From an uncultured Synergistales bacterium (GTDB lineage Bacteria; Synergistota; Synergistia; Synergistales; Aminobacteriaceae), in the NCBI GenBank assembly GCA_905233565.1, contig CAJOCL010000019.1:1-42747 (forward strand): a stretch of 42,747 nucleotides of DNA. Direction: 5' to 3'. The position numbers and the translations under genes are program-made. This document shows, piece after piece, positions 2,661 to 37,132 of this stretch (position 1 is the stretch's first letter; each line of letters opens with the position of its first letter). The notes under the pieces are model-generated. The model saw only the letters and a program-made list of their open reading frames with translations. It did no database searches and was not told where the DNA came from.

Positions 2661-2700
2661 AAAAAAACTCCCTCGAATATGAACGAGGGAGGAAATTATT
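2661..2700. terminator. Bidirectional terminator between convergent genes
   Basis: A perfect 8-bp stem pairs CTCCCTCG (2668-2675) with CGAGGGAG (2684-2691), with an 8-base loop. The A-run at 2661-2667 gives a clean U-tract on the minus strand, ending the long minus-strand operon. On the plus strand the tail is T/A-rich and weaker. Confidence 0.85.
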
Positions 2701-2706
2701 TATTTT

Positions 2707-3042
2707 TTAGTCGTCAATTTTGAATTTGAGTATCTGGCCTGTTACAGCGTCAACGTCAACATCATACTCATCACGCCCTGCCCTGAGTTCAAGAGACCAT
2801 ATCGGCCTGAAATCCGAGCCATTCCAGTAATTGTCCTCGTCCTCAAGGTCTGCGTCTTTAACTCTGACGTTCTGCGAACCTATACGTTCACGGGCAATCC
2901 TGACGGCTTCTTCTTGGGAAATTAACTTCATGTTCCGCCGTGCTGCCTCTTCGCGGACGTAACGCTCTTCGCTGCCTGCAAAAGCCGTTCCTGAAAGTGC
3001 CGTGATAATTACGACAAGAATAACGCATAATGCTTTTTTCAT
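2707..3042 (-). CDS. Secreted PepSY-domain protein
   Basis: The start is the ATG at 3040-3042, preceded on the minus strand by AGGAGGC (3051-3057); a longer frame back to 3081 has no ribosome site. The protein is 111 residues. It begins with a Sec signal peptide (MKKALCVILVVIITALSG, probable cut after AFA) and then has a PepSY-like domain: ISQEEAVRIARERIG, an alpha-helical stretch, then WSLELRAGRDEYDVDVDAVTGQILK. PepSY domains are found in peptidase propeptides and in small periplasmic proteins thought to bind or inhibit proteins or metals. The stop of the upstream flavoprotein (3056-3058) overlaps its ribosome site, so the two are probably co-transcribed. It is the last gene before the terminator. 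Confidence 0.8.
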   Translation of the reverse strand: MKKALCVILVVIITALSGTAFAGSEERYVREEAARRNMKLISQEEAVRIARERIGSQNVRVKDADLEDEDNYWNGSDFRPIWSLELRAGRDEYDVDVDAVTGQILKFKIDD

Positions 3043-3055
3043 GTTAAAAAGCCTC

Positions 3056-4579
3056 CTAATAAATAAACTCTTTTTCATCATCAGGATTTGAATCCGGGTA
3101 ATCAGTCCTGTTATGTGTTCCCCTGCTCTCTTTCCTGTTAAGCGCAGCCTTTGATATTAAGTGAATCGCCAGTGCCGTCTGCTGCGTCATATCGTCCTTC
3201 AGCGTCTCAGGGTCATTCATGATTTTTTGTGCTGCCTCAAGTGCCGCCGTCAAATCCGTGCCGTTCCTGTAAACTCCGAGTGCATGTCCCGCAATCTTCC
3301 TGAGTTCAGAAAGATATTTCGCCCTCACTGAGTCATCACGCCTGTAAACCGCCGGACGTTCTGAGATTTCCCGGTCAAGTTCTCCCGTCCTCATTATGCC
3401 CTCAGCGCAGAGAAGACCCGACATTGTAGCCTGACTTGCCGCGTTACCGGCACACCTGCACGCGCCGTGAATCCCTCCGCAGGCCTCACCGACAGCGTAT
3501 AATCCCGGAACATCTGACTCATAATTACCGTCAACCCTTATTCCGCCGGAAAAACTGTGAGGCATCGGGCCGACTTCAAGAAGTTCTTTCTTCGGATCAC
3601 ATCCGCTCTGAATCAGCCTGTTATAGAACCAAGGGTAAGCCTTCAGAATTTCAACGTCAATGTGTCTCAGGTCTACCCATATTCCGCCGTGAGGGTTTCC
3701 CTTCCCTTTTGCAACCTGTTTCCAGATTTCATGGTTGATTAAGGATTTCGGCGCACCTGCCTCGCCCTGCGGCCTTACTTCAAGAAGGAATCTTTCACCG
3801 TCCGAATTTAACAGATAACCGCCCTCGCCAAGCATGGCCGTCGGACACGGTTCACCGACAGCACCGGCAGGAGACATCATAACCATCGGTTCAAACTCGA
3901 TAAACTCAATATCAACGAGCTTTGCCCCTGCGTTCTTCGCCATTCCCAGAGTGTAGCCGTTCACATCATCAGGATACGTTGAAGTCCCGAGAAGATTCCC
4001 GACCCCTCCCCATGACGCTATCACTACAGGCGCGTAGACATTGTAAGGCTCTCCGCCTTCGTCAACAGCCGTGAAGCCCTCGATTTTCCCGTCAGAACTT
4101 TTCAGGAGATTAACGGCAACGCTTTTTCTGTGAAATTCTATTCCCGCCTCTTCGAGTTTTTTCAGCATTACGCGCTCAATCTCAACGCCGATTAAATTCG
4201 TAGTCTGGCATAATGAACGCGGATATGTGTGTCCCGAAACATGACGAAGTTTTATGCTGCCGTCATCATTGTGTGCGAAAGTTACGCCCCACCTGCATAG
4301 AAGCTCGTAGCCCCTGAGAGTGTTTGCAGCCATTTCGTTTACTAATTCTTTATTCCCGATGTTGTAGCCTGCTGCTAACATGTCCTTTGCGTATTGCTCG
4401 GGTGTATCGCCGTAGGGATTTTCAGGAAGGACGAAGTTTATCGCCGCAATGTAGGGAGTACCGCCAAGACCGTCAGCGTAAACTGCAATGTCCTTAACTC
4501 CCTGTTCGTGCAGTCTTGCCGCCGCTGCAAGTGCCGCAAGTCCGCTACCGGCTATTGCAACTCTGTGATGTCTGCTCAT
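3056..4579 (-). CDS. FAD-binding fumarate reductase/succinate dehydrogenase flavoprotein-like oxidoreductase
   Basis: The protein is 507 residues. The N-terminal dinucleotide-binding motif VAIAGSGLAALAAAARL (residues 7-23) is followed by fumarate-reductase flavoprotein features: the substrate-domain motif HVSGHTYPRSL near residue 113, GGIRVDGNYESDVPGLYAVGE near 345 (typical of the FAD domain), and GACRCAGNAASQAT near 374. Members of this family oxidise or reduce C4 acids, aspartate or steroid-like substrates. No iron-sulfur or membrane-anchor subunit lies next to it, so it probably works as a stand-alone enzyme. Its start overlaps the stop of the TRAP permease gene by 4 bases (ATGA), tying it to uptake of the same compound. 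The exact substrate is unknown. Confidence 0.8.
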   Translation of the reverse strand: MSRHHRVAIAGSGLAALAAAARLHEQGVKDIAVYADGLGGTPYIAAINFVLPENPYGDTPEQYAKDMLAAGYNIGNKELVNEMAANTLRGYELLCRWGVTFAHNDDGSIKLRHVSGHTYPRSLCQTTNLIGVEIERVMLKKLEEAGIEFHRKSVAVNLLKSSDGKIEGFTAVDEGGEPYNVYAPVVIASWGGVGNLLGTSTYPDDVNGYTLGMAKNAGAKLVDIEFIEFEPMVMMSPAGAVGEPCPTAMLGEGGYLLNSDGERFLLEVRPQGEAGAPKSLINHEIWKQVAKGKGNPHGGIWVDLRHIDVEILKAYPWFYNRLIQSGCDPKKELLEVGPMPHSFSGGIRVDGNYESDVPGLYAVGEACGGIHGACRCAGNAASQATMSGLLCAEGIMRTGELDREISERPAVYRRDDSVRAKYLSELRKIAGHALGVYRNGTDLTAALEAAQKIMNDPETLKDDMTQQTALAIHLISKAALNRKESRGTHNRTDYPDSNPDDEKEFIY

Positions 4580-6549
4580 GCCGTCAAAGCCCCTTTCGCT
4601 CCGCGACTGTTCAGGAACAATACGGCAATTCCGATTACTGCGCCGATTATTGAGCTTATCATTTCAGGCGCGATTAAGCACAAAGCCGCCGCAAAAAGCA
4701 GCACCCTTTCAACAACATTAAGATTTCTTTTATAGAAACCTGCTACCATTATTGCAAGGAAGTATGTACCGAGCGCAAGCTGTATCACTGAAATAATAAT
4801 CTCCTGAACTGAGCCTTTAAGCAGTAACGGAGGATTATAGACGAATACAAACGGAACTAGGAATCCCACCATTGCAAACGTAAAGCCCTTTAACCCCGTT
4901 TTCATTGCGTCCCCTCCTGCAATCCCTGCAGCAGTGTATGACGCTACGCAAACGGGCGGTGTAATCTGTGCCATTATCCCGTAATAAAATACGAACATGT
5001 TCGCGCAAAGATTAGCTGTTGAAGGCTCAAGACCTGTCTGTAAAAGTATAGGCTGAATGCAGGGAACGAATAATATTACGCCGACAAGATAAGCAGCAAC
5101 TGTCGGGAGTGCCATTCCGAGTATCATACAGCCGACCATAGCAATACACATTGCGAGGAATAAGTAACTTGTTCCGAGTGAACGAATCAAGACTGATAAA
5201 TTCGTTGCAAGTGAAGTCTGCTGTGTTACAACGTTGATTATTATTCCGCATGCTGCCGTAGGAATTGCGATCGCTGCAGCCTGTTTAGCTCCGTCAACGC
5301 AGCAGTCCCAAAGCTGTTTGAGATTAAGGAAATCGGGCTTGTTTACGAAATAATTTATTACGTCACAAGCAAGGCAGGTGAAAATTCCGACCATACCGGC
5401 GCGCATTAACGAATAACCGCGAATTATCCAGACAACAAGCAGTATTGCAGGAATGAGCAAATAAAGCCTTCCCATTATGGGACGGTCAACCCTTATTGAA
5501 GCGTCTGCACTTGAGTCAAGATTAGCGGCTCTCTTTGCTGCGATCTTGTCGACAAGCACAAAAACGGCAAAATAATACGCAATCGCAGGGATTATCGCGC
5601 TTGCAGCAATTGACATGTAATTAACGCCCAGCATTTCGGCCATTATGAAAGCTCCGACTCCCATAATCGGCGGCATTATCTGGCCTCCCGTTGAAGCTAC
5701 GGCCTCGACGGCTCCTGCCTCTTCAGGCTCATAACCGATCTTTTTCATCATCGGGATTGTCATAACGCCCGTTGTTGCAACGTTCGCAACGGCTGAACCT
5801 GAAATCATACCCATCAAGCCCGAAGATAATACGGCAGCTTTTGCAGGGCCTCCAGATGACTTGTTCGAGAGTTTCATACCCATGTCAATTAAAAGCTGTC
5901 CGCCCCCGATTGTCGAGAAGAAAGCACCGAAAACGATAAAATAAAACAGCGTGTTAGCACTCGTCAGAAGAGGCGTTCCGAAAACTCCGCTTTCAGTCAT
6001 CGTCATTCCTGAAGTGAACTCTTCGATAAACTGCTCGAAAGGCTTTGCGTTAGTGTGAAGTATTCCAGGCAGGTAAGGTGATACCCACGCAAATATTATG
6101 AATACAGTTATAAATCCTGCGAGTATTCCGCCGAGCGTCCTGTAAACCGCAACAAGAAGAAGCAGTATTGCTACAACCATTGCAGCGTGGTCAATGTCGA
6201 GAACTTCATCAACTCCAAGAACATAATCATTAAGGCGCGGAAACTGCGTGAGAATATACCAGAGAAGATATGCAATTCCTGCAAATGCAAAAATGTCTAT
6301 CCAGTTCCACCATGAATGTTTATTTAACAGTGCAGGCTCCGGAACTGTTCCGGCATCTTCAGCGGCCTTTTTAATTTTTTTCCTGTAAGCATAATCCGCA
6401 GGGTAATATATAAATACGAGTGTCAATGCAAAGATTAAGTGTATCGGACTTTGAAGCATAGGCGCAAACTGTTTCACCAGTGCTATATACATCTGAAAGG
6501 CAAAGAACGCTACAGTAACAATTATTGCTGCTATAGTTCTAATGCTCAT
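4576..6549 (-). CDS. TRAP transporter fused permease (4TM/12TM), TAXI type
   Basis: The protein is 657 residues and almost entirely hydrophobic segments. It has the small DctQ-like part (roughly residues 1-170) joined to the large DctM-like part. Signature stretches are SGLMGMISGSAVANVATTG near residue 245, GAVEAVASTGGQIMPPIMG near 280, and FVFYYGIMAQITPPVC near 515. TRAP permeases import organic acids across the inner membrane using a sodium or proton gradient and a periplasmic binding protein, which here is the TAXI protein at 7329-8342. GGGAG (about 6559) precedes the ATG at 6547-6549. A paralogous permease lies at 37132-39132. Confidence 0.93.
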   Translation of the reverse strand: MSIRTIAAIIVTVAFFAFQMYIALVKQFAPMLQSPIHLIFALTLVFIYYPADYAYRKKIKKAAEDAGTVPEPALLNKHSWWNWIDIFAFAGIAYLLWYILTQFPRLNDYVLGVDEVLDIDHAAMVVAILLLLVAVYRTLGGILAGFITVFIIFAWVSPYLPGILHTNAKPFEQFIEEFTSGMTMTESGVFGTPLLTSANTLFYFIVFGAFFSTIGGGQLLIDMGMKLSNKSSGGPAKAAVLSSGLMGMISGSAVANVATTGVMTIPMMKKIGYEPEEAGAVEAVASTGGQIMPPIMGVGAFIMAEMLGVNYMSIAASAIIPAIAYYFAVFVLVDKIAAKRAANLDSSADASIRVDRPIMGRLYLLIPAILLVVWIIRGYSLMRAGMVGIFTCLACDVINYFVNKPDFLNLKQLWDCCVDGAKQAAAIAIPTAACGIIINVVTQQTSLATNLSVLIRSLGTSYLFLAMCIAMVGCMILGMALPTVAAYLVGVILFVPCIQPILLQTGLEPSTANLCANMFVFYYGIMAQITPPVCVASYTAAGIAGGDAMKTGLKGFTFAMVGFLVPFVFVYNPPLLLKGSVQEIIISVIQLALGTYFLAIMVAGFYKRNLNVVERVLLFAAALCLIAPEMISSIIGAVIGIAVLFLNSRGAKGALTA

Positions 6550-6575
6550 GAATTTTCATCTCCCGTAATTCAATT

Positions 6576-7310
6576 TTAATTCATGTAATTACCGCCGTTG
6601 ATATTAATGCTCTCACCCGTGATAAATCCGGCCATGTCTGACGCTAAGAACACGGCAAGAGACGCAATATCTTCAGCTTTTCCCAACCGTCTCAGGGGAA
6701 TGCCTGATAAAACTTTTTCCCTGTATTCTGCTGACCACTGCAAAGACATATCAGTTTCAACAGGACCCGGACATATTGAATTTACCCGTATTCCTGAAGG
6801 GGCAAATTCACCGGCCAGATTTCTTGTCATCGAGTCAATTCCGCCCTTCGATGCCCCGTAACACAATGAGGCGTTGCCGTGTGCGGTCTTTCCTGCTCTT
6901 GATGACATGTTTATGATACTTCCTGATTTACGCTCAAGCATATAAGGTATAACGCACTTACAGGCATAAAATGTCCCTGTAAGATTAACTCTCAAAACTT
7001 TTTCCCATTCGTCGGGCTGAAGGTCTAAAAATTTCGTGCGCGTGTTTATGCCTGCATTATTCACGAGAATATCAATTTTGCCGAATGATGACATACATTT
7101 TTTAGCAAGCCTCTTTGAAGTATCAAGCTCACCGATATCGCCGGCTACATATTCACAGCCCAACTCAGCAGCAAGAGGTGCCAATGATTTTTCAGATGTC
7201 CCGTGAATAACGAGGCTCGCCCCGCTTTCAGCAAAGGCAAAAGCTATTGCCCTGCCGATTCCGCGAGACGAGCCGGTAATTACTGCTGATTTTCCTTCAA
7301 GCAGTTTCAT
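6576..7310 (-). CDS. Short-chain dehydrogenase/reductase (FabG-like SDR)
   Basis: The protein is 244 residues, the usual size for a classical SDR. It has the cofactor motif TGSSRGIGRA (residues 12-21), the structural NNAG motif near residue 86, a catalytic Ser around residue 136 (NMSS) and the YGASK active site (Tyr and Lys near 151-155), then the ICPGPVETDM stretch. It should catalyse NAD(P)-dependent oxidation or reduction of a hydroxyl/keto group in the cytoplasm. It sits between the TAXI binding protein and the TRAP permease, so its substrate is probably the imported hydroxy-acid or a product of it. It is not likely to be the fatty-acid FabG, as no other fab genes are near. AGGAAA just upstream supports the start. 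Confidence 0.88.
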   Translation of the reverse strand: MKLLEGKSAVITGSSRGIGRAIAFAFAESGASLVIHGTSEKSLAPLAAELGCEYVAGDIGELDTSKRLAKKCMSSFGKIDILVNNAGINTRTKFLDLQPDEWEKVLRVNLTGTFYACKCVIPYMLERKSGSIINMSSRAGKTAHGNASLCYGASKGGIDSMTRNLAGEFAPSGIRVNSICPGPVETDMSLQWSAEYREKVLSGIPLRRLGKAEDIASLAVFLASDMAGFITGESININGGNYMN

Positions 7311-7328
7311 AATTTCCTGTTTCTGTTC

Positions 7329-8342
7329 CTATTTGAAGTTGTCAAACTCGTAGCCCATTTCCTGATAATACTTTATTGCGCCGGGATGAAGGGGTGCGCC
7401 GTTGAGATCATGTTTTCCGGCGGTCTTAGGGTCAAACCACTTCAGCGAGGCTACTGCGGCTGCGATATCGTCCTTATTTTCGCAGATTGCCTTTGTCAGG
7501 GCGTAAGCTACATCATCAGGCATTGAAGCAGACACTATGACATTCTGCTGTGATCCCATTGTCTGAATGTCCTTGTCCTGTTTGTTCCATGTTCCTGCCG
7601 TCATTGTGAGAGGAGCATAGCCCATTTTGCCGAGATTAGCGAGGGTTTCGGGCGCAAGCTGTACGAAGTGCATATCGTGTGTGAGGCAGATTTCAGTTGT
7701 TGTTGACTGCCCTGCGTCGATATGGTCAATCGTTGCATCGTACAGATCGTCCTGAATGCCTGATTTTATCGCGTCAGTTCCTGATTTTTCCCACGTTGCG
7801 AACTTCATGAAATCTTCAACGCTGATTCCGCAGGCTTCAATTACGCGCTCAGCCGTAAGCTCACCGAGTGAACCGTTTTTCTTGGTGATGAGCTTAATCG
7901 GGACTTTCTTTGCGATAACTTCCTCAAGCGTCGTGCAGCCCGTCCTGTCAACAAATGCCTTTGTGAACATGATGTTTGCGAACGCATGGCCTAAACCTCC
8001 TGCAATGCTCCTTACGTCAGGGCAGTCGCCGAACTGGTAATCAGCCTTTTTGCTCTGATAGCTCCAGAGTGAAGGGCCGGCATTTGCGACGATTAAATCT
8101 GCACGCTTACGCTGAATGAGTACGGGTGCGCCGACTCCGCCGGGTGAGTTAGTTGTCAGGTCAATCGTTGAGCCTGCCGGAAGACCTTTCAGCATTGCTC
8201 CCTGAATTGCCGCTGAAACCGAGTAAGCACCCGTTCCGACTTCCTGAGCCGCAAAGATGAGCTTTACCGGCTCGGTGAGTTCTGCACATGCCGCAACGGT
8301 AAGGCAGAACACTAACACTAATGCTGCTGCTAACTTTTTCAT
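7329..8342 (-). CDS. TAXI-family TRAP transporter solute-binding protein
   Basis: The start is the ATG at 8340-8342, with GGAGGTAAA at 8349-8357 on the minus strand; a longer frame to 8396 is rejected because it overlaps the upstream phosphatase gene. The protein is 337 residues. It has an N-terminal export signal (MKKLAAALVLVFCLTVAAC) that could be cut by signal peptidase I or, at Cys19 in VAAC, as a lipoprotein. The rest matches TAXI binding proteins: LIFAAQEVGTGAYSVSAAI, the TTNSPGGVGAPVLIQ region and a C-terminal HPGAIKYYQEMGYE. It captures the substrate in the periplasm and delivers it to the fused permease at 4576-6549. Confidence 0.92.
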   Translation of the reverse strand: MKKLAAALVLVFCLTVAACAELTEPVKLIFAAQEVGTGAYSVSAAIQGAMLKGLPAGSTIDLTTNSPGGVGAPVLIQRKRADLIVANAGPSLWSYQSKKADYQFGDCPDVRSIAGGLGHAFANIMFTKAFVDRTGCTTLEEVIAKKVPIKLITKKNGSLGELTAERVIEACGISVEDFMKFATWEKSGTDAIKSGIQDDLYDATIDHIDAGQSTTTEICLTHDMHFVQLAPETLANLGKMGYAPLTMTAGTWNKQDKDIQTMGSQQNVIVSASMPDDVAYALTKAICENKDDIAAAVASLKWFDPKTAGKHDLNGAPLHPGAIKYYQEMGYEFDNFK

Positions 8343-8370
8343 GGAAATTTTACCTCCAAATAAATATATA

Positions 8371-9354
8371 TTAATGCCCGTGATCTTCATTTTCACGGGT
8401 CATTTTCCCCGAAAACTTTTTTATGACACAAGGCCATATTGCCGTAACAAATAGCATCATAACAAACGTATGAACGAAAGTTCCTCCCCATTTCGTGAAG
8501 AGAGGCGCAAGGAATTTCGCAGAGTTTCCGCGCATCTGATTCATAAACACGTATATTACGTAACCGATGACCGTTAGAATTATGCTCTTAACGTTCAGGC
8601 CGGCCGGAGTGAACCTGATATATTTTTTCTCGATGAGACGGCCCGCAATTACTCCGGCGAGGCTGCCGCCGTAAAGATATACGCCGTTAATCATTTTTGA
8701 CACGTTCACTAAAGGTTTCCCGTCAGCGTCCAAATCAATATGGTACGGCTTCAGGGTTACATATGCAACGCCGGCGATCACCATCAGGATTCCGAGAAAC
8801 GCAAACGTATTCTCATGCTCAGGGTGAGACATAACCGCCGACACGGCATAAAGAATAATCACGCTCAAAATCAGCCCCACTATGACATCCTGCGGAGTAT
8901 GCGCCCCCAAGTAATTGCGCGAGAACATGACAGCAAAAATCATCAGGGGACATACCAGCCACAATAGAAATACACTCAGGCGCGAAGGGTGCATGTATTT
9001 TTCACGCGACAACGCCGCAAGTCCTCCCAATATCGGAGCTGCCGTCATAGTATGACCGCTCGGGAATGAAAAACCCGACGGCCTGTGTCCGTAAGGTACG
9101 AGCCTAGAATCACGGATAAACGGACGGTAAACGCAGCATGTCATCTTTATAACGTTGCAGAGGAACTGCCCGATAGTCATTGACAGAAGAAGGAAAATCC
9201 CCCCGCGCTTGCTGAGACACCAGTACACAAAGAAAGGAACTATCAGAAGCCCTATTTCCGCAAAATAATCCGACACCCATACCATAAACGGGGTCAATAT
9301 TCCGTCGCTAGCCTCCCTTAAATTCTGGAGCCACAATAAATACTCTATGTCCAT
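8371..9354 (-). CDS. PAP2-superfamily membrane phosphatase (copy 1)
   Basis: The protein is 327 residues with several membrane segments. All three PAP2 catalytic motifs are present: KMTCCVYRP (KxxxxxxRP), FPSGH, and SRNYLGAHTPQD (SRxxxxxHxxxD), including the proton-donor and nucleophile histidines. It should remove phosphate from a lipid or isoprenyl (undecaprenyl) pyrophosphate at the membrane. The C-terminal third carries extra hydrophobic segments and a segment (TPAGLNVKSIILTVIGY) shared with copy 2. The start codon overlaps the stop of copy 2 by one base (TAATG). Its role within an acid-sugar operon is not obvious. Confidence 0.9.
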   Translation of the reverse strand: MDIEYLLWLQNLREASDGILTPFMVWVSDYFAEIGLLIVPFFVYWCLSKRGGIFLLLSMTIGQFLCNVIKMTCCVYRPFIRDSRLVPYGHRPSGFSFPSGHTMTAAPILGGLAALSREKYMHPSRLSVFLLWLVCPLMIFAVMFSRNYLGAHTPQDVIVGLILSVIILYAVSAVMSHPEHENTFAFLGILMVIAGVAYVTLKPYHIDLDADGKPLVNVSKMINGVYLYGGSLAGVIAGRLIEKKYIRFTPAGLNVKSIILTVIGYVIYVFMNQMRGNSAKFLAPLFTKWGGTFVHTFVMMLFVTAIWPCVIKKFSGKMTRENEDHGH

Positions 9355-10292
9355 TACTTTTTGGCCTCCGTCATTTTAATCACAAACGGCCAGACTGCGA
9401 CAGTCCAGAGCGTGAGAACTACTCCCATAACAAAACGCCCGCCCTTAGCGCCGAACATTGAGCCGAGTAAATCATAAAGAAACTTATAATCCCCAGCAAA
9501 TGTCCACGCGATAAAGTAAACAGGAACAAGGCCGATAACAGCGAGGATTATTCCCCTGACGTTAAGCCCCGTTACGCTGAAGCCGATATACTTACGCTCT
9601 ATGAAACGCCCGGAAATAAATCCCGTCATTATTCCGACAGCGTAGAACGTATCAAGCATCATTCTGTCAGGGTCAACGAGTAATTTCCCGTCAACGTAAT
9701 CCATAGGGTAAGGCTTGAAGACCGTGTATATCACTCCGAGAACACAGAGAAGCAATCCTGCAATGAGGAACGAATTTTCACGCTCAGGACGATTCATGAT
9801 GAACGACGCAAGCCACACCGCGAAAAGCCCGGCCAATGTACCGCAAATTACGTCCTGAGGAGTGTGTACTCCAAGATACATGCGCGAGAACGCAACGAGA
9901 ATTATCAAGATTCCGCAGAGCCACGCGAAAAGCCGCGATTTCCTGCGCGTAAGGACAATAAGTCCGCCTAATATCGGCGATGCCCACATTGTATGACCGC
10001 TCGGAAATGAATAGCCAGTCGGCTTATGACCCGCAGGAATAATTCTCGAATCCCTGACAAAAGGACGGTAAGCACATGCCGTAACTTTCATTATTCCGTT
10101 CATAAACCTGCTCATACAAAGGGACATTATCATGAATAATCCTGCTTTCTTGCCTATACACCAGTATACGATGAACGGGACGAATAAAAGCCACGTTATA
10201 GCCGCATGTGAGAGCCAGTTTACAAACGGGGTTAATATGTCGCCGGTTGATTCGCGGAAATTCTGGAGCAATAACAGGATTTCAATGTCCAT
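9354..10292 (-). CDS. PAP2-superfamily membrane phosphatase (copy 2)
   Basis: The protein is 312 residues and a close paralogue of copy 1; both begin with MDIE, LL and LQN-like segments. The catalytic motifs are intact: KVTACAYRP, FPSGH and SRMYLGVHTPQD. Membrane segments flank them, and the C-terminal extension resembles copy 1. It is expected to act on membrane-bound phosphate esters such as undecaprenyl pyrophosphate or phosphatidate. Its ATG follows directly on the stop codon of a degenerate third copy (TAAATG, 10290-10295), so the tandem array arose by local duplication. Confidence 0.9.
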   Translation of the reverse strand: MDIEILLLLQNFRESTGDILTPFVNWLSHAAITWLLFVPFIVYWCIGKKAGLFMIMSLCMSRFMNGIMKVTACAYRPFVRDSRIIPAGHKPTGYSFPSGHTMWASPILGGLIVLTRRKSRLFAWLCGILIILVAFSRMYLGVHTPQDVICGTLAGLFAVWLASFIMNRPERENSFLIAGLLLCVLGVIYTVFKPYPMDYVDGKLLVDPDRMMLDTFYAVGIMTGFISGRFIERKYIGFSVTGLNVRGIILAVIGLVPVYFIAWTFAGDYKFLYDLLGSMFGAKGGRFVMGVVLTLWTVAVWPFVIKMTEAKK

Positions 10293-10453
10293 TTACTTTT
10301 TGCCCTGTGTCAGCCTTATAACGCAAGGCCATAAATACAAGGACGATAAGCACAGGCCGTCATCTTCACGAATCCGTTGAAAAACCAGCTTATACCCATT
10401 GAAGCGAGAAGAAAAAGTCTGTTCTTCACCCAAAGCAAATATGACATATCCAT
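10293..10453 (-). pseudogene. Remnant of a third PAP2 phosphatase gene
   Basis: On the minus strand from ATG 10453 the frame reads MDMSYLLW then VKNRLFLLASMGISWFFNGF and VKMTACAYRP. It matches the first 8 residues and then the YRP motif region of the two intact PAP2 proteins, with about 60 residues missing between. After YRP a further stretch of about 210 codons is gone and the frame changes: the next bases in another frame read LWPCVIRLTQGKK-stop, matching WPFVIKMTEAKK-stop at the end of copy 2. So two internal deletions, the second frame-disrupting, leave only the start, motif 1 and the C-terminal tail. The literal frame ends after 35-40 codons and cannot be an active phosphatase. Confidence 0.85.
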
Positions 10454-10459
10454 AATAAA

Positions 10460-11533
10460 TTAGTTTCTGCCTCCTGCTAATCTTATTCCGTAATCCATTG
10501 CGTTAATCAGGCTGAGATTATTCGCCTCTCCGCTTCCCGCAATGTCGTAAGCCGTTCCGTGATCCACGCTGACACGGATAATCGGCAATCCTAAAGTTAC
10601 ATTTATTCCCGCGACTGCTTCCCAGTGATGCTCTTCTTTATTATAGACAAAGCCTTTGACCTTTAACGGTATATGCCCCTGATCGTGATACATGACAACA
10701 ACAATGTCATACCATCCGCCGAGTGCCTTGCTGAAAACCGTATCGGGCGGAGTGGGCTTTTTGTCGGGAATGTTAATCCCCTCCCTCAATGCCTCGTCAA
10801 TAGCCGGCTGAATCTCGTCGATTTCCTCGCGTCCGAACATTCCGTTTTCGCCGCAGTGAGGATTTAACCCCGCAACGCCGATTTTAGGATTATCGATTCC
10901 GAGTGCTTTACAGGCATTGTTGCCGAGCCTTATGCAGTCGAGAACGCGCTCTTTTTTAACTCTGTCGCAGGCTTCGCGCAGTGATACGTGTGTTGAAACG
11001 TGAATGACGCGTAAATTTTCGTGTGCAAGCATCATCGCATACTTTTTAGTCTTCGTCTCGTCCGCGTAAATCTCCGTGTGTCCTGAATAATGATGACCGG
11101 CCATGTTTATGGCTTCTTTGCTGATTGCGTTTGTTATTGTCGCGTCAACTTCGTGATTCAATGCCATTCTTATTACTTTTACGACATATTGATACGCTGC
11201 TTCACCGCCCAGCTTAGTAGGGCCTACGTTAAAGGGCTTCGGATTTTCAGGGTCTCCGGGAATATCTGACGGCTTTATTAATCCCAAGTCGAAAACGTCA
11301 ATCGTTCCGAACTGAAATTTTGCGTCCTTAACGTCTTTTACGGGATTAATTTTAACGTCAATCCCTGAAACTTTCTTTGCGACTTTTGCGGCGTATTCCA
11401 TGCACGAGACATCACCGACAACTAACGGACGGCAGCGGTCATAAACTGTTTTATCCGCAAGAGCCTTGACCGTTATTTCCGGGCCGCTCCCGAAGGGGTC
11501 TCCCATGCTTATTCCTAATATAGGCTTATTCAT
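10460..11533 (-). CDS. pdxA2: PdxA2-like 4-phospho-D-threonate/erythronate dehydrogenase (PdxA family)
   Basis: The protein is 357 residues; the family is usually about 330. Family motifs are LGISMGDPFGSGPEI at the N-terminus, HYSGHTEIYAD near residue 145, GLNPHCGENGMFG near 220 and VVMYHDQGHIPLK near 277. The histidines in the last three are the divalent-metal ligands. PdxA oxidises 4-phosphohydroxythreonine in vitamin B6 synthesis. When it is encoded beside a DUF1537 kinase, as here (13685-14875), the known role is oxidation and decarboxylation of D-threonate- or D-erythronate-4-phosphate to dihydroxyacetone phosphate. The neighbours favour this catabolic role. The gap to the next gene upstream is 21 bases. 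Confidence 0.9.
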   Translation of the reverse strand: MNKPILGISMGDPFGSGPEITVKALADKTVYDRCRPLVVGDVSCMEYAAKVAKKVSGIDVKINPVKDVKDAKFQFGTIDVFDLGLIKPSDIPGDPENPKPFNVGPTKLGGEAAYQYVVKVIRMALNHEVDATITNAISKEAINMAGHHYSGHTEIYADETKTKKYAMMLAHENLRVIHVSTHVSLREACDRVKKERVLDCIRLGNNACKALGIDNPKIGVAGLNPHCGENGMFGREEIDEIQPAIDEALREGINIPDKKPTPPDTVFSKALGGWYDIVVVMYHDQGHIPLKVKGFVYNKEEHHWEAVAGINVTLGLPIIRVSVDHGTAYDIAGSGEANNLSLINAMDYGIRLAGGRN

Positions 11534-11554
11534 TATTATCCTTCCTTATTAATG

Positions 11555-12466
11555 TTAATGAAGGCCGTTAGCTTTGCACTGTTCTAACGTCTTTTTGAGG
11601 GCTTCCAGTCCTTCAGGCGTAATGCTGCTGAATGGTCTTCTACAAGGCCCTACGGGATCGCCGAGCAATCCTGCAGCCATTTTTACGATTGTGTTCGGAT
11701 TTCCGTACTTGAAACAGTTCCTGAATATTCTTATGCTGTCCTGAACTTTCTTTGCGCGTTCAATATCACCTGCTTTGAAGGCCTCGTAAATCTCCACCAT
11801 TGTACGCGGAAAAACGTTAGCACAGCCTGCAATACCGCCCTTGCCTCCGAACATCATGGCCGGAAGTATAAGAGAGTCATTGCCTGACAAGACGCTGAAA
11901 TCCTTGCCCTTAATCTCACTCGTAAGCTCTATATACTGCTTCATGTTGTCGAAATTTCCGCTTGAGTCCTTTGCGCCGAGAATATTCGGGACATCTTTGG
12001 CCAGTTTTGCAACTGTTGAAGGTGCCAATGCGTTCCCTGTTCTTGCAGGAATATTATAGAGAACTACGGGGATTTTGACGCTTTCCGCAACTGCCCTGTA
12101 ATGTGAATATAATTCGTCCTGTGATGCGGCCGCGAAATAAGGCACTATAACCGAAAGAATATCAGCCCCGATCTCTTCAGCCTCTTTGCTGAGAGTTATT
12201 GTTTCCTTAGTTGTCGGGCAGCCCGTACCTGCATAGACCGGGACGCGCCCTTTTGTCTCGTCAACAACTGCTTTAAGTACGCTGATTTTTTCCTTGTGGC
12301 TCAATGCGTAAGCCTCGCCGTTAGTTCCGAGCGCGAAAACTCCCGAAACTCCCGCGTCAATCATCCTGTTCACCTGATGACGTAATTCGGCCTCGTTAAT
12401 GCTCTCATCGTCATACATAGGCGTTAAAACGGGCGGTATTATTCCTTTTATTTCAGGCATTTTCAT
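11555..12466 (-). CDS. Dihydrodipicolinate-synthase-family aldolase/lyase
   Basis: The protein is 303 residues, the normal size of the DapA/NAL superfamily of class I (Schiff-base) aldolases. It shows FALGTNGEAYAL (pyruvate-binding loop) near residue 45, IVPYFAA near 132 with the catalytic Tyr, YNIPARTG near 138 with the carboxylate-binding Arg, and the Schiff-base Lys in LGAKDSSG near 165. True lysine-synthesis DapA usually has GTTGE rather than GTNGE. Together with the catabolic neighbours this suggests a lyase for a 2-keto sugar acid or a hydroxy-oxo-acid rather than DapA itself. It sits 10 bases after the alcohol dehydrogenase gene in the operon. Confidence 0.85.
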   Translation of the reverse strand: MKMPEIKGIIPPVLTPMYDDESINEAELRHQVNRMIDAGVSGVFALGTNGEAYALSHKEKISVLKAVVDETKGRVPVYAGTGCPTTKETITLSKEAEEIGADILSVIVPYFAAASQDELYSHYRAVAESVKIPVVLYNIPARTGNALAPSTVAKLAKDVPNILGAKDSSGNFDNMKQYIELTSEIKGKDFSVLSGNDSLILPAMMFGGKGGIAGCANVFPRTMVEIYEAFKAGDIERAKKVQDSIRIFRNCFKYGNPNTIVKMAAGLLGDPVGPCRRPFSSITPEGLEALKKTLEQCKANGLH

Positions 12467-12476
12467 TATCTCCTTT

Positions 12477-13631
12477 CTACATTATCTGACTGTAAATCAT
12501 TCTTGCATCTTCGGGCGTAACTTTCCTTTTGTTGTTGACGAGGAGGCGTGTTACTTCCATTCCTGAAGCAACAAGACTGTCTAAATCGCTCTCAGGGACG
12601 TTCCATTCTTTAAGGCTCTTTGGAATGTCCAAGTGTTCGACCATTTCGCCGAGACGTTCAATAACTGCCCTGCTCTTTGACTCTTCAGTTGAAGCGTTCC
12701 CATTCATGCACCTGTCATAAACCTGAGCGAGTAAGCCTCTTATTTCAGGCTCATTGAATTTCATTACGGGTACTAAGAGAATTGCATTTGATACGCCGTG
12801 AGCGATGTGATACTTTCCGCCTAACGGGTAACTGAGCGCGTGAACTGCCGTTGTTCCTGAGGCCGTAATTGCGACACCGCCGTAAAAACTCCCTATCTGC
12901 ATATTTAATTTATCCTGCATTGCGTCAGGGTCATCACAGGCTTTAATGAGGCTCTTCATGATTAATTCAAGCCCTGAAAGCGCAAAAGTATCACTGAACG
13001 GGTTAGCTTTGTTGCTTGTGAAACACTCTATGCAGTGTGCAAGAGCGTCAATGCCTGTAGCGGCTGCAATTTTTCTGGGAAGTTTTTTAATCATTACTGC
13101 GTCAAGAATTACATAATCAGAAATCATGGCATTATTGACGATTCCGACTTTTAACTGTTTTTCGGGGACTGCGACGATTGCGTTAGGTGTTGCCTCCGAA
13201 CCTGTTCCGGCTGTTGTAGGAACCATTAAAGTTTTGACGTACTTGTGAGCTTTTTTCGGGTCGTCGAGTAAGTCTTTGATCCCGTAATCGTCAGTCATTA
13301 AGACGCTTGCCAGCTTTGCCGTGTCCATGACGCTTCCGCCGCCGACTGCGAGAATGAAATCTGCTCCGTATTCCCTGCACTGGTCAACAAGTTTCTGAGC
13401 CTGTCCGTAACTTGGTTCGGGCGGTAAATCATTCAGAATGACATAATCAACGCCCGATTTTTTGACGTATTCCAACGGGAAATCAAGAAGTCCTGCACCC
13501 TGAATCCCCTTATCCGTGAAGACTGCGAGTTTTTTCACTTTTTCTGATGATAAGACATCGGGAATGTTGCTTAATGAGTTTTCACCGCCGAAAACTGTAT
13601 TCGGCATTCCTAATGTGTATTTTGTGAGCAT
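12477..13631 (-). CDS. Iron-containing (group III) alcohol dehydrogenase
   Basis: I chose the ATG at 13629-13631, preceded on the minus strand by AAAGGCAGG; a frame 11 codons longer (to 13664) is possible. The protein is 384 residues. Family motifs are AVGGGSVMDTAK near residue 87, VPTTAGTGSEAT near 130, and the metal-binding region GIDALAHCIE near 185 with the later AHGVSNAILL near 261 (Asp and His ligands). These enzymes use NAD(P) and Fe or Zn to interconvert alcohols and aldehydes or ketones. In this operon it probably oxidises a hydroxy-acid to a semialdehyde or keto-acid. The gene lies between the kinase and the DapA-like aldolase. Confidence 0.9.
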   Translation of the reverse strand: MLTKYTLGMPNTVFGGENSLSNIPDVLSSEKVKKLAVFTDKGIQGAGLLDFPLEYVKKSGVDYVILNDLPPEPSYGQAQKLVDQCREYGADFILAVGGGSVMDTAKLASVLMTDDYGIKDLLDDPKKAHKYVKTLMVPTTAGTGSEATPNAIVAVPEKQLKVGIVNNAMISDYVILDAVMIKKLPRKIAAATGIDALAHCIECFTSNKANPFSDTFALSGLELIMKSLIKACDDPDAMQDKLNMQIGSFYGGVAITASGTTAVHALSYPLGGKYHIAHGVSNAILLVPVMKFNEPEIRGLLAQVYDRCMNGNASTEESKSRAVIERLGEMVEHLDIPKSLKEWNVPESDLDSLVASGMEVTRLLVNNKRKVTPEDARMIYSQIM

Positions 13632-13684
13632 TTTATAACCTGCCTTTCTATTTTGCTGAATCAAGTATAATGCTTTTTGCCGTG

Positions 13685-14875
13685 TTATTTTATTTTTTCA
13701 GCAAGTTTAACAAGTAACTCTTTTTCTCCGAAACCGCCAGATTTCGTCATAATATAATAACTCTTAGCATTATATGTAAAACTCGTCAAAACTACCCCTT
13801 TTTCAACTTCAAACATCGGGACAAGCTCATGAACTCCGACAGCCTGCATAAGTGCGAGAAGCGTATCGCCACCGACACATATTAATCTCGCGTCAAGTCC
13901 CCCGTCAATTATTGCCTTCGCTGCTCCCGTAACTGAACGCGAAATATTCAGCCTCACTTCATCGGGCGTTAAATTATTTTCACGTATGTATTTATTCGTT
14001 TGTGATATTTCGTTTGGGTTATTAGCATCAAGTATTGAGTTACAGCCTGAAATTTCAGAAAGCCATTTTTCAGCGGCATCTATACATTCAGGACTTCCCG
14101 GCCATGAAGGATTTAACTTTTCTTTAACGCTCAGTGATACATATTTGAAGCCGTTATCCCTCGCATATTCAACCTGAGAGCGTGTTACTGGGTTGACCGA
14201 ACCGCATATCATGAAGAGTTTTTCAGGCATTTCAGGAACTGCCGAACTTTTCCCGTGATAGCCCAGAAAATGAGCCAAGACCCCCGCGAATCCTGCACAG
14301 CCGGCAGTCAGTTTTAAGCCCTTATGCCCGAGATGCCCGGCAATCTCAATCATTTCTGAATCAGTCTCAGCGTCATAAACATGTATTCCCTTTTTATCCG
14401 TCTGAGAAGCTATAATCTCTCTTACATCCGAAAATTTAACCGGCTCAAAAGGATCCTTGCCGAACATGCTTTCTGCAACGGGTACGCCGTCAATATAATG
14501 TATTCCGTTCCTCGTAACCCGTCTCATTGCCGGAAATGCAGGAATGAATGACATCTCCTCAAGCCCTAGCGCGTCCATTGCTCCGGCTAATTCACTTCCG
14601 ATATTTCCCCTCAATCCTGAGTCTGTTTTTTTATAGATATATGGGATATTGTTATTCTTCGCGCGTAATACTATGTCGTATACAGTTTTATATGCCGCTT
14701 CTGGGGAAATGTGTCTTGTTTCTGCGTCAAATATCAATACTTGAAGGTCTTCTGCTTTCTTTATGTCGTAATCATTTTCCGTAACTACGAGAGTTTTTGC
14801 GCCAAGTGAAGAAAACTGTACTCCTGCGTCCAAAGCTCCCGTAAAATCATCTGCTATGATTAATAGTTGAGGCAT
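13685..14875 (-). CDS. Four-carbon acid-sugar kinase family protein (DUF1537, D-threonate/erythronate kinase-like)
   Basis: The protein is 396 residues. The N-terminal LLIIADDFTGALDAGVQF motif and the C-terminal CVGGDTLLALMQAVG glycine-rich segment are hallmarks of the DUF1537 kinase family, which phosphorylates the 4-hydroxyl of D-threonate, D-erythronate and related acids using ATP. YKKTDSGLRGNIG near residue 82 is also typical. It is the first gene of the minus-strand operon. The product, a 4-phospho acid, would feed the PdxA2-like dehydrogenase at 10460-11533. Which acid is used cannot be read from sequence. AAGGA lies 15 bases upstream of the ATG, which is rather far. Confidence 0.88.
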   Translation of the reverse strand: MPQLLIIADDFTGALDAGVQFSSLGAKTLVVTENDYDIKKAEDLQVLIFDAETRHISPEAAYKTVYDIVLRAKNNNIPYIYKKTDSGLRGNIGSELAGAMDALGLEEMSFIPAFPAMRRVTRNGIHYIDGVPVAESMFGKDPFEPVKFSDVREIIASQTDKKGIHVYDAETDSEMIEIAGHLGHKGLKLTAGCAGFAGVLAHFLGYHGKSSAVPEMPEKLFMICGSVNPVTRSQVEYARDNGFKYVSLSVKEKLNPSWPGSPECIDAAEKWLSEISGCNSILDANNPNEISQTNKYIRENNLTPDEVRLNISRSVTGAAKAIIDGGLDARLICVGGDTLLALMQAVGVHELVPMFEVEKGVVLTSFTYNAKSYYIMTKSGGFGEKELLVKLAEKIK

Positions 14876-15126
14876 TATTATTCACTGCAATCCTTATAAC
14901 AAAATTCTCGAACATCAAAAATTTATCAGAATTTCTTTCATAGTAAATCAGCAATATTAACAATATTTTCTGCGTGAACGTCATCAAAATTTCGTGAAAG
15001 TTATCTTTTAGGTATTGTTATTATTTTCATATAGTGAAATAATCATAAATCTCAACACGGGAAATAATATTTTTTCCATTGAGATTATATTACAACAAAA
15101 ATTTTTAATTCGGAGGCGTTTTATTC
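14876..15126. promoter_or_regulatory. Divergent AT-rich intergenic region with two inverted repeats
   Basis: This 251-base region separates the minus-strand operon from the secreted protein at 15127. Two inverted repeats are visible. ATTATTTTCA and TGAAATAAT (15020-15043) are interrupted by 5 bases. AATCTCAA (15048-15055) pairs with TTGAGATT (15079-15086) and extends inward through GGAAA and TTTCC. They could be operators, or a hairpin in the leader of the gene at 15127. I see no convincing full promoter; TGTTATAAG on the minus strand at 14893-14901 resembles an extended -10 but is very close to the start. Confidence 0.45.
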
Positions 15127-15567
15127 ATGAAACGTTTAGCAGTAATCGTAACACTCATCGCGTTATTGGCGGCCTCAACGGCATTCGCGGAGGTCAAGGA
15201 TTTCGGGAAATTCACGCTTGACGTTCCGGCAGGCTGGACATCAGCTCAGGAAGGCCCGACAGCAACCATCACGAAGGACGACAAAACGGCAGCACTCACG
15301 ATAACCATAATGCCCTCTGAAGGTGCATCAGCAAAGGATCTTGCTACGGCATTTACTGAAGAGTTCAAGAAGAGCTTCAAGACAGTCGGAACACCTGAGG
15401 CAGACGCTGACGGCGACTACTCATGGGACATGAAGAACGAAAACGGCGTGAACACAAAGGCAATGCTTCATGTTGAGGGCGGAGACTGCATGCTCGTAAC
15501 AATGACGGGTCTTGAGACTGCAGGCGAGGAAATCGGAAACATTCTCGGAACGTTAAAAGACAAATAA
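15127..15567 (+). CDS. Small secreted protein, PsbP/DUF1795-like
   Basis: The start is ATG 15127, preceded by CGGAGG (15112-15117). The protein is 146 residues with a clear Sec signal peptide (MKRLAVIVTLIALLAASTAFA, cut after AFA). The mature part begins DFGKFTLDVPAGWT and continues with TITIMPSEGASAKDLATAF, a layout seen in small PsbP-like or DUF1795 domains (a beta-sheet protein with a PxGW motif near the start). A periplasmic or extracellular location is expected; the function is unknown. It stands alone, with a long hairpin terminator right after it. Confidence 0.7.
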   Translation: MKRLAVIVTLIALLAASTAFAEVKDFGKFTLDVPAGWTSAQEGPTATITKDDKTAALTITIMPSEGASAKDLATAFTEEFKKSFKTVGTPEADADGDYSWDMKNENGVNTKAMLHVEGGDCMLVTMTGLETAGEEIGNILGTLKDK

Positions 15568-36030: not shown

Positions 36031-36121
36031 CACTTTTTCAGTAAAAATCTTCAAATTCTGGTAAAATTTAATACAATTAATTTTTCAGAAATAAAAATTT
36101 CATACAGGAGTGATTATTATC

Positions 36122-37132
36122 ATGAAGTCATTTCGTTTTTCAGTAATTGCCATTCTCATAATGGCCTTGTTAGCAGGCTGCGCATACGCAGACGAACCCG
36201 ACAAGACAGGCTGGCCCTCACAGTTAAGATTCATGGCAGGCCCTCCCGGCGGAAACTGGTTTGCACTCGGTACGGCACTGAGTGAAATGTGGACGGCTTC
36301 AGGGCTTCCGCAGACAACAAGTTCATCAGGCGGCGGTGTCTCGAACATTCTCAACGCTCACGCAAGGCGCGGTGATTTGGGCTTCTCCGTAACTTCACTG
36401 CTCGGCGCGGCTCTGAAAGGCGAGGCGGATTTCAAAGGCCGTGTTGTCGATAACGCCGTAATCATGGCTAATCTTTACACTCAGTATACGTATTTCATAA
36501 TGCGTAAGGACTTTGCTGAAAAGAACGGCATTAAATCAGTTGAGGACATAATCGCTAAAAAACTGCCGATGAGATTCGCAACGTTAAAGCCCGGAACAAG
36601 CTCGGAATTTGTAGTTAAGGCACTGTTTGAAAAAGGTTACGGCTTTGATTACAAGAAGACTTTCCAGGAATGGGGCGGAAGTGTCGAATATGCTTCATAT
36701 GACGGCGGAGCGGATCTGCTCGCTGATAATCATCTTGACTGCTTTGCCTTCTCAATAGGGAAAATCGCTTCAACAGTCATGAATATTGAAAGTCAGGTCG
36801 ATATTGTTCTCCTTCCTGTCGGTCAGGATGCACTCGATAAACTTTCAGACGCTTACGGAACAGTAACGCTTACGATAGAGCCGGGAATTTACAAGTCAGT
36901 TCCCGCTGGTGCCGAGCCCGTTAAAGCTGTCGGAGATTACACCTGCATAGTCATACGCAAGGATCTCCCTGCTTCACTCGTCTATGAACTTAACAAGGCA
37001 ATCTGGGAACACAAAGAGGCTCTTGTCGCGGCAGTAAGGGACATGGCCGAACTTGTGCCGTCAATTGCGCTTCCTGCAAAAGTCCCGGCACATGAAGGCA
37101 GTATAAAATTCTGGGGCGAGCTGAATAAATAA
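36122..37132 (+). CDS. TAXI-family TRAP transporter solute-binding protein (second system)
   Basis: The start is ATG 36122, with CAGGAG about 11 bases upstream; a frame 4 codons longer begins at 36110. The protein is 336 residues. The signal sequence contains LLAGC, a good lipobox (Cys20), although a signal peptidase I cut after AYA is also possible. The TAXI features are RFMAGPPGGNWFALGTALSEMW near residue 38 and SSGGGVSNILNAHARRGDLGF near 65. The C-terminus HEGSIKFWGELNK resembles that of the first system. It delivers an organic acid or similar compound to the permease encoded directly after it (TAATG overlap). Confidence 0.92.
   Translation: MKSFRFSVIAILIMALLAGCAYADEPDKTGWPSQLRFMAGPPGGNWFALGTALSEMWTASGLPQTTSSSGGGVSNILNAHARRGDLGFSVTSLLGAALKGEADFKGRVVDNAVIMANLYTQYTYFIMRKDFAEKNGIKSVEDIIAKKLPMRFATLKPGTSSEFVVKALFEKGYGFDYKKTFQEWGGSVEYASYDGGADLLADNHLDCFAFSIGKIASTVMNIESQVDIVLLPVGQDALDKLSDAYGTVTLTIEPGIYKSVPAGAEPVKAVGDYTCIVIRKDLPASLVYELNKAIWEHKEALVAAVRDMAELVPSIALPAKVPAHEGSIKFWGELNK

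Follow-up and report, generated by a model that had tools for sequence, protein, structure and literature searches.

A candidate operon for catabolism of the rhamnogalacturonan II acid sugar Dha in an uncultured Synergistales bacterium

Which substrate is served by an operon that joins a DUF1537 kinase and PdxA2 to an aldolase, several redox enzymes and an importer? The question is raised by a stretch of 42,747 nucleotides from a rumen-type, uncultured Synergistales bacterium (contig CAJOCL010000019.1 of assembly GCA_905233565.1; the window hereafter means this whole stretch), in which ORF (open reading frame) calls and family searches place 11 tightly packed minus-strand genes from 14875 to 2707. 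A sequence-only reading had named the kinase, PdxA2, an iron-containing alcohol dehydrogenase (Fe-ADH), a short-chain dehydrogenase (SDR), a DapA-like lyase, two PAP2 phosphatases, a TAXI-TRAP importer and a flavoprotein, and the ORFs and family searches confirmed all of these. It had also pointed to the D-threonate/D-erythronate route for the kinase and PdxA2 and suggested a substrate wider than threonate or different from it, possibly an epimer or a longer acid sugar, which it left unnamed. That interpretation was right in direction, incomplete, and is partly supported: the longer acid sugar gains support, and the route would still end as it does for threonate, but with D-threonate as an intermediate and not as the food. 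From sequence comparisons we propose that the operon probably takes up and degrades Dha (3-deoxy-D-lyxo-hept-2-ulosaric acid), a C7 dicarboxylic acid sugar of rhamnogalacturonan II (RG-II). In plants, Dha is known only from pectin RG-II, as stated in passages of PMC6353982 and PMC12282258. Plant food contains RG-II, and enzymes for dismantling it are known; the passages of open-access literature consulted gave no description of the bacterial fate of Dha and no account of its intracellular breakdown.

A proposed route from Dha to pyruvate and dihydroxyacetone phosphate

In the proposed route, the TAXI-TRAP system would import free Dha released by other microbes. The DapA-like class I aldolase would then cleave the C3-C4 bond to give pyruvate and D-threo-tetruronate (2,3-dihydroxy-4-oxobutanoate), the aldehyde of which the Fe-ADH would reduce to D-threonate. 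For the two remaining steps the function of the families is known: the DUF1537 kinase would form D-threonate 4-phosphate, which PdxA2 would oxidise and decarboxylate to dihydroxyacetone phosphate (DHAP) and CO2. The net yield from Dha would be pyruvate, DHAP and CO2.

DapA-type lyases yield pyruvate and an aldehyde, Fe-ADHs reduce aldehydes, and the kinase and PdxA2 lead from a C4 acid to DHAP. If the four enzymes form one line, a C4 acid aldehyde must be released, and the lyase substrate would therefore be a C7 2-keto-3-deoxy dicarboxylic acid. D-threonate is the isomer expected because Dha has the D-lyxo configuration; by Fischer bookkeeping, the D-lyxo C5-C6 piece left by the retro-aldol cut, once reduced at C4, is D-threonate. 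This acid is the substrate of DtnK, according to the part of PMC10971088 that treats Zhang 2016, and its 4-phosphate is that of PdxA2, PDB entry 6e85 being titled D-threonate 4-phosphate dehydrogenase.

The kinase and phosphate dehydrogenase families are those of D-threonate catabolism by DtnK and PdxA2, also adjacent there, and DHAP would be the end product here. To this pair the window adds the DapA-like aldolase and the Fe-ADH, proposed to turn a C7 acid into D-threonate within the cell, as well as a TAXI-TRAP importer, whereas the usual type sits separately on contig C12 of the same genome with a GntP permease. The DapA-type aldolase of model TIGR02313 cleaves a 2-oxo dicarboxylic acid of seven carbons, releasing pyruvate together with a C4 acid aldehyde; the Fe-ADH of model NF058672, 4-hydroxybutyrate dehydrogenase, acts on a C4 acid aldehyde. 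The window lyase matches this C7-dioate aldolase model at 219.7 bits (cut-off 396.7) and the window Fe-ADH matches NF058672 at 208 bits (cut-off 500), both below threshold; the substrates proposed for the window enzymes carry two extra hydroxyl groups.

The best NCBIfam model for the kinase is NF047819 (D-threonate kinase) at 174 bits, under its cut-off of 450; the OtnK model gives 89 bits. Apiose/apionate catabolism also employs a DUF1537 kinase (OiaK), apiose being another RG-II sugar, yet the window kinase stays at 32.7 bits on the OiaK model, far under the required 700. PdxA2 scores 287 bits on NF002891 (cut-off 583). Against the PDB, it matches the PdxA2-named entries 2hi1 (244 bits) and 6e85 (233 bits) better than entries named PdxA 1 (at most 159 bits), and its top match, 4jqp at 270 bits, carries only a generic name. 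Both importer components pass their models, the TAXI protein at 128.4 bits on TIGR02122 (cut-off 84.35) and the fused TRAP permease at 517 bits on TIGR02123 (cut-off 320.65).

The lyase scores 237.7 bits on the DapA model TIGR00674, above its cut-off of 206.15, and the window copy has the Schiff-base Lys, the Tyr and the carboxylate-binding Arg. In an alignment of 27 window-type lyases, Lys and Tyr are kept in all 27 and Arg in 25. The role of this Arg in DapA is to hold the carboxylate group of the C4 acid aldehyde; aspartate semialdehyde, DapA's own aldehyde, is of this sort. The DapA motif GTTGE, with its Thr-Thr pair, is replaced by GTNGE in the window and in 25 of the 27 lyases, the other two having GSNGE; the copy of dihydrodipicolinate synthase (DHDPS) on contig C11 of the same genome has GTTGE.

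Conservation of the core and co-occurrence with the Dha hydrolase

The core was counted as present where the genes for kinase, Fe-ADH, lyase and PdxA2 share a strand and span no more than 9 kb. Named genomes yielded 80 loci in a scan, of which four from Synergistaceae were set apart and 76 compared. The full core is present in 42 of the 76, from Bacillota, Actinomycetota (Coriobacteriaceae), Spirochaetota and Bacteroidota, and the Bacillota include Faecalibacterium prausnitzii, Enterococcus florum, Paenibacillus massiliensis and [Clostridium] citroniae (locus L102). This recurrence argues that the grouping of the four genes is not a matter of chance. Another 17 loci have the kinase and PdxA2 without lyase or ADH (kinase-only loci below), and the remaining 17 have neither pattern, several of them lying on short contigs. 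Within the host's own family, 47 of 81 genomes hold a relative of the window PdxA2 (E <= 1e-20), and in relatives above about 77% identity whose neighbourhood is readable the four genes stay together. Kinase, Fe-ADH, DapA-like lyase and PdxA2 form the unit that stays the same in Synergistaceae, Bacillota, Spirochaetota, Actinomycetota and Bacteroidota.

Past PdxA2, gene content varies among the relatives: some loci have PAP2 genes, up to four of them, or none, and others have a SerA-like dehydrogenase together with TctABC; a SerA-like gene occurs in nine relatives' loci, and in L057 a DctP-type importer replaces TAXI. Outside the family, L102 shares eight genes with the window at 43-66% identity (the core, TAXI, TRAP, SDR and flavoprotein; PAP2 and PepSY are not among them), and a Tepidanaerobacter locus (L153) also has TAXI, TRAP and the flavoprotein. 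The PAP2 phosphatases, counted as operon partners by the sequence-only reading, have no match in any of the 42 four-gene loci and are rejected as pathway members; they are lineage-specific passengers outside the conserved unit. The same reading's "fumarate-reductase-like" protein is indeed FAD_binding_2 of the SdhA/NadB type, but the catalytic Arg of fumarate reductases is missing. In fumarate reductase and L-aspartate oxidase this active-site Arg sits in an RGEGG or RGDGG stretch; all 14 aligned sequences, L102 and L153 included and compared also with 7d6v, have LGEGG or LGEGA. A fumarate reductase function is rejected because the Arg is replaced throughout, and the alignment marks the flavoprotein as a coherent subfamily lacking the catalytic Arg of both enzymes. 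It recurs together with the SDR in L102, and it may perhaps convert related acids into a form that the core can use.

Glycoside hydrolase family 143 (GH143) includes the Dha hydrolase with which Bacteroides thetaiotaomicron acts on RG-II, as passages of PMC6811678 and PMC7761036 report. The BT_1020-type propeller PF24067 served as its marker. A copy in Gaoshiqia sediminis (L147) matches PDB 5mqr at E 1e-222, an entry that we take to be BT_1020, with GH143 presumably as its N-terminal half. Among the genomes behind 50 of the 80 named loci, which were searched for it, PF24067 exceeds its cut-off in 19, namely in 17 of the 18 with an SSS symporter in the cluster, in L127 and in the Lachnospiraceae genome L095. 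Of the 12 genomes whose locus has PdxA2 by itself or just with the kinase, none passes the cut-off, though L154 among them gives a sub-threshold match.

In two Bacteroidota families the core is nested within the genomes that carry the Dha hydrolase. In the family of G118 (Phocaeicola, so Bacteroidaceae), PF24067 is found in 30 of 199 genomes and DUF1537 in nine, all of which fall among the 30. Without the centre genome the comparison is 8/8 against 29/198 (hypergeometric p = 8e-8, genomes being treated as independent and shared ancestry ignored). All nine carry DapA, SSS, PdxA2 and DUF1537 together, with an Fe-ADH seen in eight. In the family of G126 (Flavobacterium), 17 of 395 genomes have strong PF24067 (E < 1e-70); some DUF1537 is present in 45, ten of them inside the 17, and a short-kinase cluster in seven, all inside the 17 (6/6 against 16/394 without the centre genome; p = 1.6e-9, with the same treatment of ancestry). 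The split into short and long kinases was made after the scores were seen and then checked by gene content: the cluster is present in all six short-kinase loci fetched, as in the centre genome's L148, and in none of six long-kinase loci. In five genomes of this family (G382, G439, G463, G583 and G718) a distance of 24-34 kb separates the longer kinase from GH143-type genes; this kinase is perhaps OiaK, for apiose.

Physical linkage is also seen. In L147 the cluster adjoins GH140-, GH143-, GH142-, GH127-, GH28- and GH78-type genes (some of these numbers are our assignments from Pfam and PDB names), in L150 it adjoins a GH143/GH142-type fusion, and in L144 GH140- and GH28-type genes lie beside it. 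In the manner of RG-II utilisation loci of the B. thetaiotaomicron type, L147 and L150 have the core functions next to GH143/GH142-type genes, whereas the window operon has no glycosidase and its genome no GH143, which would make the host a scavenger, not a degrader. A further point in favour of Dha is the sialidase-fold BNR_2 protein found in 14 of the 42 four-gene loci and in none of the 17 kinase-only loci, its class being one that cleaves 2-keto-3-deoxy-acid glycosides.

Points against the proposal and other explanations

Several findings weigh against a Dha pathway in the window. On the D-threonate equivalog models, the kinase and PdxA2 both score too low to pass. The lyase is only 23-32% identical to that of Bacteroidota, and its Arg corresponds to a Thr there, so the two may use different acids; the transfer of a substrate from one to the other is the weakest link. 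The two are bridged by the Bacillota lyases, most of which share 55-67% identity with the window lyase and which often have a sialidase-fold protein as neighbour. The pathway leaves the SDR and the flavoprotein unexplained. As for the hydrolase, 21 of the 30 PF24067 genomes in the G118 family and 10 of the 17 in the G126 family lack the cluster, and the shared ancestry passed over by both p values counts here too. Because Kdo (3-deoxy-D-manno-oct-2-ulosonic acid), aceric acid and apiose are RG-II sugars too, the link with GH143 is not by itself specific for Dha. PF24067 was found in none of the 81 Synergistaceae genomes searched, the window's own included, and for this reason the host probably scavenges free Dha.

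The operon could instead serve a different 2-keto-3-deoxy acid, such as Kdo, KDN (2-keto-3-deoxynononic acid), a sialic acid or another heptulosarate, which the lyase would split into pyruvate and some other aldehyde. The presence of Kdo in RG-II is compatible with the GH143 co-occurrence, and YhcH-type proteins (5/42) and BNR_2 proteins (14/42) accompany the four-gene loci. The latter, about 387 residues long, all come from Bacillota loci and are absent from the 17 kinase-only loci. A predicted structure (pLDDT 87.4) matches sialidases (Z 36.6, root-mean-square deviation 2.9 over 322 residues), which would make BNR_2 a sialidase-fold hydrolase, of a class that cleaves 2-keto-3-deoxy-acid glycosides. 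The 50 structure matches listed for the model do not include 5mqr, an absence from which nothing follows. In an alignment of 12 of the 14 proteins, read with the sialidase Arg-triad motif as we assume it, the first Arg is His, which also speaks against the proposal and suggests that the substrate is probably not an ordinary sialic acid. However, Kdo, KDN and sialic acids would release aldoses of five to six carbons that have no carboxylate, leaving no path to the C4 acid kinase and PdxA2, and the carboxylate-binding Arg described above for DapA is present in 25 of 27 window-type lyases. We consider this explanation unlikely.

Plain use of D-threonate or D-erythronate through DtnK and PdxA2, the genes for lyase, dehydrogenases and importer sharing the transcript but acting on other substrates, we judge a shade less probable still. 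The two enzymes look to be of the DtnK/PdxA2 kind, and the kinase-only loci pair them without lyase or ADH, but in the 42 loci across phyla lyase and ADH accompany the pair. Moreover, the genome already owns a DUF1537-PdxA-GntP operon on contig C12 (L059), an arrangement that we take to be the usual D-threonate type, and contig C9 (L060) has DUF1537 with an LtnD-like dehydrogenase; no relatives of the window lyase or ADH were matched beside DUF1537 at L059 or L060. Two DHDPS genes are present besides the window's. A different division of labour would give the main C4-C6 hydroxy-acid chemistry to the SDR and flavoprotein, together with the SerA-like dehydrogenase and group 22 isomerase of sister species, and would leave the lyase route secondary. 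This reading draws on the nine SerA-like genes and on LarA-like isomerases in four relatives' loci (L048, L051, L056 and L057), of which the two scored, L051 and L056, are nickel-pincer isomerases of group 22. Those genes come and go from one sister species to the next, whereas the lyase, ADH, PdxA2 and kinase are retained, and we hold such a general acid-sugar operon to be very improbable. Vitamin B6 salvage, with the kinase acting on 4-hydroxythreonine and PdxA making the PdxJ substrate, has scarcely any chance of being correct: DUF1537 kinases can phosphorylate 4-hydroxythreonine (passages of PMC7954711 and PMC10971088), but PdxJ had no match in the genome, the identical search being positive in 4 of 14 control genomes, and lyase, ADH and importer would be left without use. 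It is rejected on the missing PdxJ.

A dedicated Dha pathway in at least five phyla, Faecalibacterium prausnitzii ATCC 27768 included, has in our estimate somewhat better than an even chance; two distant aldolase clades would perform the same step, rumen Synergistaceae would be Dha cross-feeders, and sister species would add the SerA-like dehydrogenase and an orphan group 22 isomerase. If so, the four-enzyme route would be testable in a single tube, and "DapA", "PdxA" and "four-carbon acid sugar kinase" annotations in many gut genomes would gain candidate substrates. A cross-feeding link would run from pectin degraders to Synergistaceae without a Dha hydrolase of their own, and group 22 nickel-pincer isomerases would acquire a candidate context.

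Operon layout, variants and neighbouring genes

The features are collected in Table 1. Intergenic distances range from -23 to +53 bp with a single exception, the 167 bp from PdxA2 to the first PAP2 gene, which contain a PAP2 remnant 52% identical to PAP2 a over 31 residues. The whole operon is likely one transcript. The terminator scan of the window returned 18 sites where 13.2 were expected, by which measure the hairpin at 2691-2668 is weak taken alone; the promoter scan gave 19 against 19.6 expected, and with counts so near chance neither scan was leaned on.

Table 1. Features of the operon and its downstream end in window coordinates
Feature	Position	Strand	Basis or remark
DUF1537 four-carbon acid-sugar kinase, proposed D-threonate 4-kinase	13685..14875	-	ORF, family models
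Fe-ADH, proposed D-threo-tetruronate reductase	12477..13664	-	likely start 13631; TTG at 13664 possible
DapA-like class I aldolase (DHDPS family), proposed Dha aldolase	11555..12466	-	family models, key residues
PdxA2-type 4-phosphate dehydrogenase, HGTAYDIAG motif; proposed D-threonate 4-phosphate to DHAP and CO2	10460..11533	-	
Remnant of a third PAP2 gene, 45 codons, passenger	10316..10453	-	
PAP2 membrane phosphatase a, lineage-specific passenger	9354..10292	-	
PAP2 membrane phosphatase b, lineage-specific passenger	8371..9354	-	
TAXI-family TRAP solute-binding protein, proposed Dha binder	7329..8342	-	start probably 8342, not 8396
SDR	6576..7310	-	family models; recurs in L079 and L102
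Fused TRAP permease	4576..6549	-	family models
FAD_binding_2 flavoprotein, SdhA/NadB type without catalytic Arg	3056..4579	-	
Small PepSY-domain protein, last gene of the operon	2707..3078	-	
Terminator-like hairpin directly past the last gene	2668..2691	-	

The C-terminal part of PdxA2 (window 10535-10563, residues ~324-333) differs between sister species (L039-L057). The Asp-type motif HGTAYDIAG, which we assume to be like that of NAD-dependent isopropylmalate dehydrogenases, is found in 11 loci, none with SerA, and the Gly-type HGTGFGHAG in ten, nine with SerA (Fisher p = 3e-5); the motif difference suggests that the coenzyme changes along with the operon variant. The placement of the LarA-like isomerase in sister-species operons hints at its substrate, which may be a hydroxy acid of four or seven carbons; passages of PMC11770544, PMC7583248 and PMC12611868 on group 22 name no substrate. 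In the window's genome no Lar_N protein or LarA epimerase (PF09861) was found. Kinase-only loci (L080, L084, L098, L118 and others) carry LarA-type racemases in 7 of 17 cases and KdgT permeases in 5 of 17; the racemase possibly epimerises D-erythronate to D-threonate.

Immediately upstream of the DUF1537 gene, close relatives carry genes for a LytTR response regulator and a GHKL kinase (L039 17493-19600, set against window 14875-15127); no match to either was found in the window. By eye, ankyrin-repeat-like genes lie between kinase and Fe-ADH in L040, L043, L044 and L072. An IS605 OrfB-type (TnpB-like) gene stands beside the D-threonate-type operon on C12 (L059 6545-7861). In the window itself, what appears by eye to be a second pair of TAXI binding protein and fused TRAP permease occupies 36110-39132 on the plus strand.

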